This document shows, one piece after another, positions 30,156 through 36,981 of a DNA stretch of 44,738 nucleotides (positions are counted from its first letter, which is position 1; each line of letters begins with the position of its first letter). A model generated the notes under the pieces. It saw only the letters and a program-made list of their open reading frames with translations, ran no database searches and was not told the DNA's origin. A program made the translations under genes and the position numbers. The DNA comes from Ruminococcus sp. (GTDB lineage Bacteria; Bacillota; Clostridia; Oscillospirales; Ruminococcaceae), in contig JAFYFU010000019.1 of the NCBI GenBank assembly GCA_017543595.1, positions 99,622 to 144,359 on the forward strand. Reading direction: 5' to 3'.

Positions 30156-30845
30156 ATGGATATAGGCGAAAAGCTTATGGAAGAACTTGAATGTCGTGTG
30201 GCGTTCACAATTCCTGTGCTTGGAGGTATTCCCGTTCCCGAATCCTGCGTTATGACATGGGGAATAATGCTTGTCGTGGTAATCGCCTCAATACTTATGG
30301 TGAGAAAACTGAAAAAAGTCCCGACAGGTTCTCAGTGTCTGCTTGAAATAGGCATAAACTGGATGAATAATTTTTTCCTTGAAATACTCGGACCGAGAGG
30401 AAAAAAATATCTGCCGATACTTGAAACTTTTCTTATTTACATCGGTATTTCCAATATAGTCGGACTTTTCGGACTCAGACCGCCTACAAAAGATATGGGC
30501 GTAACGGCTACCCTTGCAATTTTCGCAATACTTCTCATACAGTACAGCGGAATCAGGGAAAAAGGCTTTAAAGGCTGGCTTAAAAGCTTCAAAGAACCCA
30601 TGGGACTGCTTTTACCCATGAATATTCTCGAACTTTTAATCAAACCGCTTTCGCTTTGTATGCGACTTTTCGGAAACGTTCTCGGTGCTTTCGTGGTAAT
30701 GGAACTTATAAAAATGCTCCTGCCCGTAGGACTTCCCCTTGTTTTCAGCTTTTACTTTGATATTTTTGACGGTTGTATTCAGGCATATGTCTTTGTATTC
30801 CTTACATCTCTGTTCATGTCGGAGGCTATGGAAGAAGCAGAATAA
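30156..30845 (+). CDS. atpB: F1Fo ATP synthase subunit a
   Basis: Subunit a forms the half-channels of the membrane Fo sector. The 229-residue protein has five to six transmembrane helices. The essential arginine is in LSLCMRLFGNVLGAFVV, in the helix facing the c-ring. A glycine- and proline-rich loop, FGLRPPTKDMGVT, precedes it. AAGAAGGTG lies before ATG 30156. It opens the operon atpB-E-F-HA-G-x-D-C. Confidence 0.95.
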   Translation: MDIGEKLMEELECRVAFTIPVLGGIPVPESCVMTWGIMLVVVIASILMVRKLKKVPTGSQCLLEIGINWMNNFFLEILGPRGKKYLPILETFLIYIGISNIVGLFGLRPPTKDMGVTATLAIFAILLIQYSGIREKGFKGWLKSFKEPMGLLLPMNILELLIKPLSLCMRLFGNVLGAFVVMELIKMLLPVGLPLVFSFYFDIFDGCIQAYVFVFLTSLFMSEAMEEAE

Positions 30846-30912: not shown

Positions 30913-31134
30913 ATGTCACTCACAGCATTAGGTGCAGGTATTGCAGTTCTCACAGGCGCAGGCGCAGGTATCGGTATAGGTATCGCAACTTCAAAGGCAG
31001 CAGATGCTATTGCACGTCAGCCCGAAGCAAAAGGCGATATCAACAAAGCCCTTCTTCTCGGCTGTGCGCTCGCAGAAGCTACGGCTATTTACGGTTTTGT
31101 TATCGCAATACTCATAATATTCCTTTTAAAATAA
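30913..31134 (+). CDS. atpE: F1Fo ATP synthase subunit c
   Basis: Subunit c is a two-helix hairpin that makes the rotor ring. The 73-residue protein has a glycine-rich first helix, GAGAGIGIGIATSKAADAI, the polar loop ARQPEAKGDI, and the ion-binding glutamate in CALAEATAIYGFVIAI. The Gln of helix 1 and the Ser after Glu that mark Na+-specific rings are replaced here (Ile and Ala), which favours protons as coupling ion; that is inference. GGAGG precedes ATG 30913. Confidence 0.96.
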   Translation: MSLTALGAGIAVLTGAGAGIGIGIATSKAADAIARQPEAKGDINKALLLGCALAEATAIYGFVIAILIIFLLK

Positions 31135-31172: not shown

Positions 31173-31727
31173 ATGCCCGTAAGTACACTCATCTGTATGC
31201 CTGTTGTTGCGGCTGAAAATCCCCTCAGCGGAACTATGCTTGACATAAATATCTGGAATTTTATCTGGTCAGCCGTCAATATAATCATACTGTTCGTACT
31301 TCTTAAAATATTCCTTTTCAAACCGATAAACAAACTCATGGACGACAGAACACAGTCAATCCGGAATGATATAGATTCCGCAGAAAAGGCTAAGAAAGAA
31401 GCGGAAGAATTAAGACAGCACTATGAAAACTCTCTCGGCGAAGCCAAGGAAGAAGCTAAAAAAATCATCATGAAAGCCCATGACGAAGCCGAAATCGAAA
31501 GAACAGCCATTATCAGGAAATCTCAGGAAGAAGCCGAGGAAATTGTAAATGCGGCTGGAAAAACTATCGAAAACGAGCGCAGAATAGTTATTCAGCAGGC
31601 ACAGGCTCAAATTGCAGACCTTGCCATTGAAGCCGCCTCAAAAATAGTCGGTGCAAACCTCGATGACGAAAAGAACCGCAAACTTGTTGATGAGTTCCTT
31701 TCAGCGGAGGAGGGTGACAGGAAATGA
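31173..31727 (+). CDS. atpF: F1Fo ATP synthase subunit b
   Basis: Subunit b is the peripheral stalk dimer. The 184-residue protein has one N-terminal transmembrane helix ([21 protein letters not shown]) and a long charged amphipathic helix (about 55-165). The C-terminal end, which contacts delta, is present. A ribosome-binding site GAAAGGAAGG precedes ATG 31173. Its last 4 bases (ATGA) overlap the start of the delta-alpha fusion. Confidence 0.94.
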
Positions 31728-33745
31728 AAGACACCGACAAGGATTTTTTAAAGGAGCTTATAAGGCTTGATATTCCGCAGGAAAATGTCGATTCCGCAAA
31801 AGATGTCATAACCGCCTGCCCCGATGTAATCGACACTCTTTCAAATCCGCTTGTCACCACTGACGAGAAAAAAGGCATAATCAAAAGACTTTTTCCGCAG
31901 AGCCTTGAAAAACTCCTCATAAGCTCGCTAAGAGGCGGAACAATTGAAAATCTCAGCATTATTCTTGACGAATATTCAGATATTCTCCTTGAAAAACAGG
32001 GCGTTATAAAAGCCGTTGTCCGCTATGTCACTCCCCTTACGGAATCACAGCAGGCTGAACTCAAAAAGTTCATCATGGAGAAATTCATCAAAGATGATGT
32101 TGACATAGAATATAAATACGACCCCGATATTCTGGGCGGTTTTATTCTCAATGCGGGCGATGTCGAATACGACAGAAGCTACCGCACAAGCCTCAGAATG
32201 ATGAAAGATACTTTGCAGTCAAAAGCTGCGGATATAGTTGATTCCGATGAGGAGGCAAGCGAAAGCGATATTATTTCCGTACTCAAAACGGAAGTAAGGG
32301 ATTTCAAAATAAAATCAGGCGAAACCGAAACAGGCTTTGTAACAAGACTCGGTGACGGTATCGCAAGAGTAAGAGGCATGAACAGCGTTATGTACGGCGA
32401 ACTCGTTGAATTTGAAACGGGTATAAGGGGTATCGTTCAGAATCTCGAAGAAAAAACCGTAGGCGTTGTACTTCTCGGTGACGACCACGGACTTACAGAG
32501 GGGTCGTCCGTAATAAGAACAGGTAAAAGAGCAGGTATCGGCGTAAGTGACGAACTACTCGGCAGAGTTGTGGACGCACTCGGTTCGCCCATTGACGGTC
32601 TCGGACCGATAAAGGCAGAGGACTACTTCCCTATTGAACGTGAAGCCCCCGGAGTTATTGAGAGAAAATCCGTAAATGTCCCGTTGCAGACGGGTATTCT
32701 TGCGATTGATTCAATGTTCCCGATAGGCAGAGGTCAGCGTGAACTTATCATAGGCGACAGACAGACAGGTAAAACTTCTATCGCACTTGATACTATCATA
32801 AACCAGAAAGACAAGGACGTAATCTGCATTTATGTCGCAATAGGTCAGAAATCCTCAACAGTTGCACAGGTAGTCAATACTTTGAAAAAATACAATGCTA
32901 TGAGTTATTCGGTTGTTGTGTGTGCATCTGCGAGCGACCCTGCGCCTTTCCAGTATATATCCCCATATTCAGGAACGGCTATTGCGGAATATTTCATGTC
33001 AAAGGGAAAAGATGTTCTCATAGTATATGATGACTTGTCAAAGCACGCTGTTGCATACCGTGCGATGTCATTGTTACTGCACCGTCCCCCAGGACGAGAG
33101 GCTTATCCCGGAGATGTATTCTATTTACATTCAAGGCTTTTGGAACGTTCAAGCCGTCTTGATGACGAACACGGCGGAGGCTCACTCACGGCACTCCCTG
33201 TAATAGAAACTCTTGCGGGCGATATTTCTGCATATATTCCGACAAATGTAATATCCATCACCGATGGACAGATATTCCTTGAAAGCGAACTTTTCAATTC
33301 GGGTCAGCGTCCTGCGGTAAACTACGGACTTTCGGTATCCCGTGTGGGCGGTGCTGCACAAACCAAGGCTATGAAAAAAGCTGCGGGAAATCTCCGTATA
33401 GACCTCGCACAATTCAAGGAAATGGAAATATTCACGCAGTTTTCCTCCGAACTTGACCAGTCAACAACGGATTTGCTGAATCACGGTCATATGCTCACGG
33501 AACTGCTCAAACAGCCCTTATACAACCCCAAGCCCCACTATGAACAGGTTATTCTCCTCTATGCGGCACAGCACGGGCTTTTTGACCTCATACCGCTTAA
33601 AGAACTGAAAGAATATATAAATGACCTCATGTCATATATCAGAAGCTACGGTCAGGATATTATCGAAGAAATCGAAGAAAAGAAAATCATGACCGAAGAA
33701 CTTGGCGAACGTATCGAAAGAATCGTTACGGCATTTGAGGAATAA
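31724..33745 (+). CDS. Fused F1 ATP synthase delta-alpha subunit (AtpH-AtpA)
   Basis: One 673-residue reading frame holds two subunits that are normally separate. Residues 1 to about 165 are a delta subunit (OSCP-like): an N-terminal helical bundle, then [18 protein letters not shown] and the C-terminal [21 protein letters not shown] linker, roughly 166-180 with [11 protein letters not shown], joins it to a complete alpha subunit (from about 181): [16 protein letters not shown], Walker A GDRQTGKT (344-351), the Arg-finger region [20 protein letters not shown] and the normal C-terminus. No separate atpH or atpA is present. The codons of linker residues 176-178 spell GAGGAGG (32249-32255), possibly the old atpA ribosome-binding site. 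Start ATG 31724 overlaps atpF as ATGA. Fusion is read directly; cleavage or internal initiation cannot be excluded, although no ATG, GTG or TTG follows at usable spacing. Confidence 0.92.
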
Positions 33746-33756
33746 GGGGTGACATT

Positions 33757-34665
33757 ATGCCCAATATGAGAGAAATCCGTGAGAGAATCGCAAGCATACA
33801 GCAGATACTCAAAATCACGAACGCTATGTATCTTATGTCCTCATCTAAGCTTAAAAAGGCAAGAAAGTCACTCGATGCAACCGAACCCTATTTCTATAAA
33901 TTGCAGGAGACAATAAATAATATACTTGAACATACTCCGCATACAAGACAGGCTTATTTCGACAGGAGAACCAATATCCCCGAAGATAAAAGAAAAAGGG
34001 GCTATATAGTAATCACGGGCGACAAGGGTCTTTGCGGAAGCTACAATCATAATATTTTGAAATATGCAGAGCAGAAACTCGATGAAACAAAAAATATCGA
34101 CAACTGCTATTTGTTTGTAATGGGTCAGGTAGGACGTATGCATTTTCATAGGCGAATGAGCGGCGGAGGAAAAGCCTCCGTTGACGGGGAATTTCTGTAC
34201 ACAACACAGAATCCCACGCTTTACAGGGCTATGGAGATAGCGAAAATAGTTCTTGACAAATTTGAAAACCATGAACTTGATGAAGTCTATGTTTTATACA
34301 CGGATATGATAAATTCAAATTTGCAGGAAACAAGAACCGTTCAGCTTCTGCCCTTTGAACGCAGACATTTCGGAAAAGCCCCTGACGGCACTATGAAAAA
34401 ACTCCCGAAAGCGTCTTTCGTACCCTCGCCCGAAAAAGTTATGGAATTTCTTATCCCGCAGTACGCAAAGGGCATAATCTACGGTGCTATGGTTGAGGCT
34501 TTCTGCTGTGAACAGCAGTCAAGAATGACGGCTATGGACGCAGCAACAACAAGTGCAAAGGATATGATAAAAGATTTGTCATTACTTTACAACCGTGCAA
34601 GACAGGCGGCTATAACTCAGGAAATTACCGAAGTTGTAAGCGGTGCAAACGGTCTTGACGAATAA
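33757..34665 (+). CDS. atpG: F1Fo ATP synthase subunit gamma
   Basis: Gamma is the central rotor shaft inside the alpha-beta hexamer. The 302-residue protein begins MPNMREIRERIASIQQILKI with the long N-terminal helix, contains ITGDKGLCGSYNHNI in the Rossmann-like domain, and ends in the long C-terminal helix with SRMTAMDAATTSAKDMIKDL and NRARQAAITQEITEVVSGA. All conserved features are present. AGGGGTGAC precedes ATG 33757, 11 bp after the fusion gene. Confidence 0.95.
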   Translation: MPNMREIRERIASIQQILKITNAMYLMSSSKLKKARKSLDATEPYFYKLQETINNILEHTPHTRQAYFDRRTNIPEDKRKRGYIVITGDKGLCGSYNHNILKYAEQKLDETKNIDNCYLFVMGQVGRMHFHRRMSGGGKASVDGEFLYTTQNPTLYRAMEIAKIVLDKFENHELDEVYVLYTDMINSNLQETRTVQLLPFERRHFGKAPDGTMKKLPKASFVPSPEKVMEFLIPQYAKGIIYGAMVEAFCCEQQSRMTAMDAATTSAKDMIKDLSLLYNRARQAAITQEITEVVSGANGLDE

Positions 34666-34683
34666 TTCAAAGGAGTGTATCTT

Positions 34684-35076
34684 ATGAGTAAAATAGCTGA
34701 ATTTTTAAAGGAAACAGGCGTTTTCTTCCTCGCAACAGCAGACGGAAACCAGCCTAAACTCCGCCCCCTCGGAGCTTTTCTCGATGAGGACGGAAAAATA
34801 ATTTTCGGCGTGGGCGATTTCAAGGCTGTATACAAACAGCTTAAAGCAAATCCCCTTGTTGAGATAGCAGCCTGCAAACCAAACGGTCACTGGCTCAGAT
34901 ATACGGGAAAAGCCGTATTTGAAACAGATACAAAATATGCCGAAAAAATGATTAAAAATTCGGGTCTTGAAAGCATATACAACGAAAATACAGGTCATAA
35001 GCTCATGGCTTTTCATATTGAGGACGCAAAAGCTGTCGATATAGCTGTTATGGGAGAAGGAGAAAACCTCTTGTAA
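34684..35076 (+). CDS. Pyridoxamine 5'-phosphate oxidase-family (FMN split barrel) protein
   Basis: The 130-residue protein is a short FMN-binding split barrel. It contains FFLATADGNQPKLRPLGAF near the N-terminus, GVGDFKAVYKQLKANP, and a C-terminal barrel ending in VDIAVMGEGENLL. Such proteins bind flavin or F420/haem and may reduce small molecules. It lies in the same direction between atpG and atpD, which are normally adjacent, 18 bp after atpG. Start ATG 34684 follows AAGGAG; the GTG at 34675 is part of that site. Role in the ATP synthase operon is unknown. Confidence 0.78.
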   Translation: MSKIAEFLKETGVFFLATADGNQPKLRPLGAFLDEDGKIIFGVGDFKAVYKQLKANPLVEIAACKPNGHWLRYTGKAVFETDTKYAEKMIKNSGLESIYNENTGHKLMAFHIEDAKAVDIAVMGEGENLL

Positions 35077-35140: not shown

Positions 35141-36559
<1,419 letters not shown>

Positions 36560-36570
36560 GGGGGCGGATT

Positions 36571-36981
36571 ATGGCTAAAACCTTTCAGCTTGAAATAATC
36601 GCCACGGACAGAATATTTTTCAGGGGTGAGTGCGAACACCTTGTAATAACTGCCATTGACGGTCTCTTAGGCATAATGGCAGGGCATGAACCCCTTGTTA
36701 CCGTTCTCCCCACGGGCGAACTTAAATACATGGTTGACGGCGTTTGGAAATATGCCGCCATATCAGAGGGATTTATTCAGGTTATGCCCGACAAGGCTGT
36801 AATACTCGCGGATTCCTGCGAACTCCCCGAAGAAATAGATATAAAGCGTGCGGAGGAAGCCCGTCAGCGTGCGGAAGAACTCATGAAACAGAAACAAAGC
36901 ATAGTTGAATACTATCAGACACAGGCTGCACTTAACCGTGCCATGAACAGGCTTAAAGTTTCGCAGAAACACTTTAAATAA
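36571..36981 (+). CDS. atpC: F1Fo ATP synthase subunit epsilon
   Basis: Epsilon links gamma to the c-ring and can inhibit hydrolysis. The 136-residue protein has the N-terminal beta sandwich (FQLEIIATDRIFF, GLLGIMAGHEPLVTVL) and a C-terminal helical hairpin (about 88-136) rich in Arg and Glu. Length is normal. It is the last gene of the operon. Confidence 0.94.
   Translation: MAKTFQLEIIATDRIFFRGECEHLVITAIDGLLGIMAGHEPLVTVLPTGELKYMVDGVWKYAAISEGFIQVMPDKAVILADSCELPEEIDIKRAEEARQRAEELMKQKQSIVEYYQTQAALNRAMNRLKVSQKHFK

Follow-up and report, generated by a model that had tools for sequence, protein, structure and literature searches.

The window (i.e., the whole stretch of 44,738 nucleotides of DNA from a gut Ruminococcus sp. 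that was analyzed) carries an F-type ATP synthase operon with the gene order a, c, b, delta-alpha, gamma, an inserted gene, beta, and epsilon. The genes of the operon and the parts of the fusion gene are as follows.

30156..30845, + strand: atpB, Fo subunit a, 229 aa (Pfam ATP-synt_A, 147.6 bits)
30913..31134, + strand: atpE, Fo subunit c, 73 aa (Pfam ATP-synt_C, 67.2 bits)
31173..31727, + strand: atpF, Fo subunit b, 184 aa (Pfam ATP-synt_B, 95.7 bits)
31724..33745, + strand: delta-alpha fusion gene, 673 aa (frame, Pfam, NCBIfam)
31724..31999, + strand: delta N-terminal (helical) domain, residues 1-92 (boundary set here; OSCP match, and columns conserved in alignments of 19 and of 23 sequences)
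32000..32209, + strand: delta C-terminal (b-binding) domain, residues 93-162 (boundary set here; OSCP match and alignment with the engineered chain 9jc1_I)
32210..32266, + strand: polar linker, residues about 163-181, in the genus rich in Ser, Glu, Gly, Lys, and Asp and variable in length and sequence
32267..33742, + strand: complete alpha subunit, opening with the conserved N-terminal helix, residues 182-191 (TIGR00962, residues 180-672)
33757..34665, + strand: atpG, gamma (TIGR01146, 273 bits)
34675..35076, + strand: inserted pyridoxamine 5'-phosphate oxidase-like gene, 133 aa (PNPOx_N, 48.1 bits)
35165..36559, + strand: atpD, beta
36571..36981, + strand: atpC, epsilon, both domains

A delta-alpha fusion in the F-type ATP synthase operon

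The delta-alpha fusion is real: a single ATG-started frame of 673 aa (ORF translation of the window), the start of which overlaps the stop codon of atpF (ATGA), encodes an F1 delta subunit (OSCP) that is almost full length, followed by a polar linker and the whole of alpha. The OSCP family (PF00213) matches fusion residues 19-164 over model positions 23-172 of 172 (85.5 bits; cut-off, 22.3); both the N- and the C-terminal domain of delta lie in this match, and only the first 22 model positions are unmatched. Pfam places the alpha beta-barrel at residues 203-267, the nucleotide-binding domain at 324-539, and the C-terminal domain at 546-671, and the NCBIfam atpA model TIGR00962 covers residues 180-672 (model positions 4-498 of 503; 759.5 bits; cut-off, 484.45). 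The alpha part stays below the cut-off of the N-ATPase model (TIGR03324, 611.9 bits versus a cut-off of 750.5). Within the alpha N-terminal helix, D182-S185 and L187-V191 are invariant in 23 aligned sequences, and the delta N-terminal domain is kept both in the window and in the relatives of the two alignments (19 and 23 sequences).

The usual composition of F1 is alpha3 beta3 gamma delta epsilon, which includes a single delta, and the enzyme has a single stalk. The first-pass annotation had described delta, linker, and alpha in one 673-codon frame, which the frame itself, the OSCP match, and TIGR00962 confirm, and had seen no separate atpH or atpA; a whole-genome profile search bears this out, with one OSCP, one atpA over the cut-off, one b, and one a in the genome of origin (93.47% complete, 127 contigs), all in this operon. 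The stoichiometry problem that it had raised (three alphas, one delta) is genuine.

The pyridoxamine oxidase-like gene splits gamma from beta, and a recognizable copy is located there in 7 of the 77 named loci (see below) showing both gamma and beta. A V/A-type ATPase coexists with the F-type enzyme in this genome (G000, contig C115, 21823-24839), with an A subunit scoring 919 bits against a cut-off of 470 and a second frame of 462 aa in the same stretch.

Spread of the fusion within Ruminococcus

An F-type alpha was found in 33 of the 35 same-genus genomes. OSCP and alpha matches share one frame in 32 of these 33 (one of the 32 being assembled in 3 contigs). The fused frames measure 671-699 aa in 30 genomes; the others are a frame of 577 aa, in which the alpha match ends early (G032), and one of 545 aa on a contig that begins inside delta (G035; L086). 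Using an alignment of 19 delta-linker-alpha starts as a query, we found 281 relatives in a scan of named records and kept the best 80, most of them titled Ruminococcus. Delta and alpha share one frame in all 80 of these best-scoring loci of 281, and a b match lies within each of the 80 as well. Thirteen of the kept loci come from 12 isolate strains (i.e., records not labeled MAG), including R. flavefaciens FD-1, 007c, ATCC 19208, and MC2020. Strain FD-1 was considered as a two-copy strain, but both contigs encode an identical protein and were taken as one gene assembled twice. Two records titled Alistipes (L105 and L157) bear the Ruminococcus-type fusion, and their titles are probably wrong.

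The fusion is thus near fixation in the genus, and the first-pass annotation, which had proposed looking for it in related genomes, is borne out by both the same-genus genomes and the named loci. Separate atpH and atpA genes in close relatives, which that annotation had taken to speak against a fusion, do occur, alone in one of the 33 alpha-bearing genomes (G016) and together with the fused kind in two more (G021 and G033), but they stand against 32 genomes with the fusion, the latter two among them. The ordinary separate delta and alpha genes in these three assemblies (loci L074, L075, and L076) are candidates for contamination, transfer, or an older operon.

Fusion layouts across the phylum

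In the order-wide sample, 90 of 197 genomes have an alpha, and 28 of these, including the window genome, were read as delta-alpha fused, with one fragment (G177) left out of the reading. The 10 alpha-bearing genomes from other genera of the same family have ordinary alpha frames with a separate delta upstream. Outside the order, where mainly long frames were fetched together with some ordinary ones for contrast, the class sample (245 genomes searched) gave at least 147 genomes with alpha and at least 25 read as fused, and the phylum sample (81 genomes searched) gave 67 and 5, respectively. Pfam detected OSCP at an E value of 0.01 or better in the N-terminal part in 55 of the 57 fused-read genomes outside the genus, and every family known from a single genome was checked separately for OSCP (L070 and L245 among them). 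The fused genomes represent at least 23 family codes, i.e., 10 in the order, at least 10 elsewhere in the class, and 3 elsewhere in the phylum. One of the two genomes without a match has a candidate mini-delta fusion in f125 (L280), which was not counted among the families, and two further long frames (L252 and L282) proved not to be fusions.

The following layouts were assigned by reading the sequences; ten of the proteins were also run against Pfam over their full length.

Full delta-alpha: genus g1 (Ruminococcus), f42, G180 of f24, and G365 of f52
Mini-delta, the commonest: alpha preceded by just the C-terminal domain of delta (about 90 residues)
Tandem mini-delta: G133, two OSCP stretches
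Tandem mini-delta locus: L200, 3544-5565, + strand; two tandem delta C-terminal domains before alpha (two OSCP stretches)
b'-delta-alpha, hydrophobic at the N-terminus: found in seven genomes; frame lengths 737-781 aa, or 736, 740, and 755 aa from chosen starts
b'-delta-alpha loci: L067, 3488-5707, + strand; L202, 4565-6829, - strand; L205, 4273-6480, - strand; also L068, L204, L206, and L209
Free-standing mini-delta loci: L073, L218, L219, L220, L223, L250, L254, and L258

The b' part exceeded the Pfam ATP-synt_B cut-off in two of the three proteins tested, L205 falling short. If left uncut, a b'-delta-alpha chain would provide three membrane anchors per F1. In the three b'-delta-alpha loci that we looked at (L067, L068, and L205), a separate b-like gene was read upstream. 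No clear change of the alpha N-terminal helix was seen in the mini fusions. The free-standing mini-delta genes, as read, lie between b and alpha in frames of about 74-113 aa and lack the N-terminal domain. In G078, one F-type operon (L222) has an N-terminally extended alpha and no recognizable delta, and a second operon (L224) has an ordinary delta and alpha.

Phylogeny of the fused alphas

In a tree of 98 alphas, built by a quick method and supported by SH-aLRT values only, the 17 Ruminococcus rows group together (SH-aLRT, 100) and away from those alphas of their own family that have a separate delta; their group nests in a larger one in which separate, full-fused, and mini-fused forms are mixed. 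A second group (SH-aLRT, 99) is made up of the seven b'-delta-alpha rows. Parsimony requires 11 changes between the fused and separate states. A single origin of all fusions was rejected by an AU test of one clade of 64 fused rows (P = 1.6e-5), and one clade of the 21 full-length rows was likewise rejected (P = 2.2e-5), both on quick trees. Mini fusions may descend from full ones, so the latter result fits many origins and paraphyly alike. A separate-delta sister (L236) lies beside the full fusions of f42, and the full fusion of f52 stands with mini fusions; these placements would fit an order in which fusion came first and the N-terminal domain was lost later.

Constraint on the delta domains

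We compared 76 Ruminococcus fusions (i.e., the window and 75 of the best 80 loci; L087, L094, L111, L139, and L154 were omitted as cut, short, or missed by the motif) using uncorrected pairwise differences from pairs that are not independent. Over 1,316 pairs with an alpha difference of 0.10-0.15 (mean, 0.115), the delta N-terminal domain differed by 0.444, the C-terminal domain by 0.165, and the linker by 0.659. The corresponding values for 51 separate deltas were 0.447 and 0.432 for the N- and C-terminal domains (69 pairs at an alpha difference of 0.03-0.15; mean, 0.111), with some pairs repeated because three loci were entered twice. The Ruminococcus N-terminal domain therefore evolves at the usual pace and is under ordinary constraint, with the C-terminal domain slower by a factor of about 2.6; what can safely be concluded is that the N-terminal domain is not decaying.

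We rejected C-terminal slowing as a general result of fusion. The independent full fusion of f42 (five sequences) shows no split between the domains (about 0.17 in both at an alpha difference of about 0.065), and a similar slowing is found in g13, a genus that has a separate delta; there, the N- and C-terminal differences among L033, L185, and L189 are 0.240/0.130, 0.333/0.159, and 0.260/0.188 (C-terminal domain up to twice as slow). The rate shift is thus neither general to fusion nor unique to it. The mini fusions gave a difference of 0.205 at an alpha difference of 0.089 (5 pairs).

Integrity of the fused chain

An internal start for a free alpha was sought in 79 genes (the window and 78 loci) over codons -22 to +28 around IISVL, accepting ATG, GTG, or TTG with a Shine-Dalgarno match of 4 or more nucleotides. 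Such a start occurs in 21 of the 79 genes, at scattered positions, and 30 of the 79 have none of the three codons in this stretch; the fused gene's own start has a match of this kind in 78 of 79. No conserved internal start was thus found in these genes, which disfavors the escape offered by the first-pass annotation, namely, that alpha is also made alone. The same annotation had taken GAGGAGG, at 32249-32255 within the linker codons, for a relic of the atpA ribosome-binding site. AGGAGG, GAGGAG, or GGAGG falls within the 60 nucleotides before the alpha start region in just 6 of the 79 genes, so the best reading of the string is a part of two Glu codons rather than a preserved relic. The linker itself has a mean pairwise difference of 0.625, the stretch between two fixed points around it measures 22-30 residues (77 of 79 measured), and no shared cutting site was seen in linkers compared across the Ruminococcus fusions.

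These data bear on three rival explanations. A sequencing or assembly artifact, or a dead gene, might be suspected in a 127-contig assembly with one same-genus genome (G016) that has separate genes only, but the conserved frame already refutes it; the fusion is present in 32 of 33 same-genus genomes and in all 80 of the best 80 loci of 281, isolate strains included, and is strongly conserved in sequence, so it is not an assembly error, and we give this explanation practically no weight. Internal initiation that also yields free alpha and dilutes delta could draw on a TTG at codon -19 of the window with a 4-nucleotide Shine-Dalgarno match, and on the GAGGAGG string; with 58 of the 79 genes lacking any start codon that bears a sufficient match over the codons searched, it is very improbable. 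Somewhat less so, but still improbable, is cleavage of the linker in all or two of the three copies, which would give back separate alpha and delta chains: proteases would be able to reach a polar, variable linker, yet no shared cleavage site was seen in it, its lengths and sequences vary freely, and relatives have fusions of several other layouts.

Discussion

Relation to known fusions

The first-pass annotation had known of no described delta-alpha fusion, which is outdated, since Ueno et al. 2025 (PMC12229609) engineered such a fusion and refer to a natural example. According to the main text of that paper, the authors removed the N-terminal domain from delta in the Bacillus PS3 enzyme and fused the remainder to alpha. 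Gels of the engineered enzyme showed about twice the usual a and b, its H+/ATP was 5.8 versus 3.0, and cryo-EM found 0, 1, 2, and 3 stalks in 15, 51, 26, and 8% of particles, respectively. The authors argue that it is the delta N-terminal domain, placed on the symmetry axis, that restricts the enzyme to a single stalk. As in the window, the delta C-terminal domain of this deltaDeltaN-alpha enzyme (PDB 9JC1) is joined to the alpha N-terminus by a linker, which is described as short, with all three alphas fused. Chain 9jc1_I can be aligned in a single stretch to residues 93-665 of the window's fusion protein, and the alignment has one gap, of six residues, at the linker, where the engineered chain is shorter; the engineered enzyme has no delta N-terminal domain, whereas the window keeps it. 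The same text describes a natural delta-alpha fusion in Acidaminococcus fermentans and points to two further UniProt entries; by the paper's description, the A. fermentans protein also lacks the N-terminal domain present in the window. The main text mentions neither a full-length version nor Ruminococcus, and our searches of the open PMC literature (which takes in few subscription papers and no preprints) showed no description of either a delta-alpha fusion of full length or a fusion of the b'-delta-alpha kind.

A peripheral-stalk subunit is also fused in Mycobacterium and Gordonia, as described in published passages (PMC5709465), and a b-delta chain is found among the structures (9vkp_d). There, b is fused to delta and alpha is separate, so that the delta count would stay at one; in the window, b has its own gene and alpha is fused. 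Published passages also describe Clostridia operons seemingly without atpH, a lack shared with the window operon, but for which those passages report no delta-alpha fusion; some of them may be unrecognized fusions.

Number of peripheral stalks

We propose as the likeliest explanation, tentatively and at a confidence just short of probable, that the fusion is made as a single chain that enters F1 without being cut, giving three tethered deltas and up to three stalk docking sites. The three alphas would each bring a delta; one delta N-terminal domain would take the usual seat on the threefold axis, and the other two would lie elsewhere, as a flexible connection would allow. Each delta C-terminal domain would be tethered beside its own alpha N-terminal helix, where a b2 stalk might dock, and the enzyme would then not be strictly bound to one peripheral stalk. 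The proposal is favored by the single delta, alpha, b, and a genes of the genome, by the near fixation of the fusion in the genus, by the lack of a conserved internal start in the 79 genes, and by a variable linker in which no shared site was seen. It is also favored by the C-terminal difference in Ruminococcus, which lies little above that of alpha and far from that of the N-terminal domain, by the collinearity of the window with the engineered fusion that bears up to three stalks (PMC12229609), and by the many relatives with the same fusion minus the N-terminal domain.

Other observations speak for an uncut fusion with one ordinary stalk, in which two deltas are idle and held off the top of F1 by a flexible linker; this is a doubtful but credible alternative. 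The domain that acts as the stalk limiter according to Ueno et al. (PMC12229609) is kept in the window under ordinary constraint, where it could enforce one stalk; the genome has one gene each for a and b, and the connection would be long enough to hold a delta aside. Against one stalk stand the unusually constrained C-terminal domain in Ruminococcus, a point that is itself limited by f42 (fused without slowing) and g13 (slow without fusion), and the loss of the N-terminal domain in many relatives, i.e., the removal there of the one-stalk device. Returning to the proposal of one to three stalks, the retained N-terminal domain argues for fewer stalks in Ruminococcus than in the mini fusions.

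Implications for the ATP synthase stator

The delta-alpha fusion breaks the usual parts count of F1 and may permit more than one anchoring stalk. Its presence in the culturable R. flavefaciens makes the F1 subunit count directly testable. Together, the mini-delta, tandem mini-delta, and b'-delta-alpha forms indicate that the stator was rebuilt more than once. A bolder reading, which we regard as possible though rather doubtful, is that alphas that each have their own stalk-binding delta domain (in one clade, also their own membrane-anchored b' arm) arose repeatedly in the phylum and across at least 23 families, that some natural enzymes bear two or three peripheral stalks together with several a subunits, and that the full Ruminococcus fusion is an intermediate showing how the one-stalk rule was first loosened. 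If several stalks and a subunits are present, H+/ATP would rise as reported in the main text for the engineered enzyme (5.8 versus 3.0; PMC12229609), and a raised H+/ATP would allow ATP synthesis at the low proton-motive force that fermenters are expected to have.
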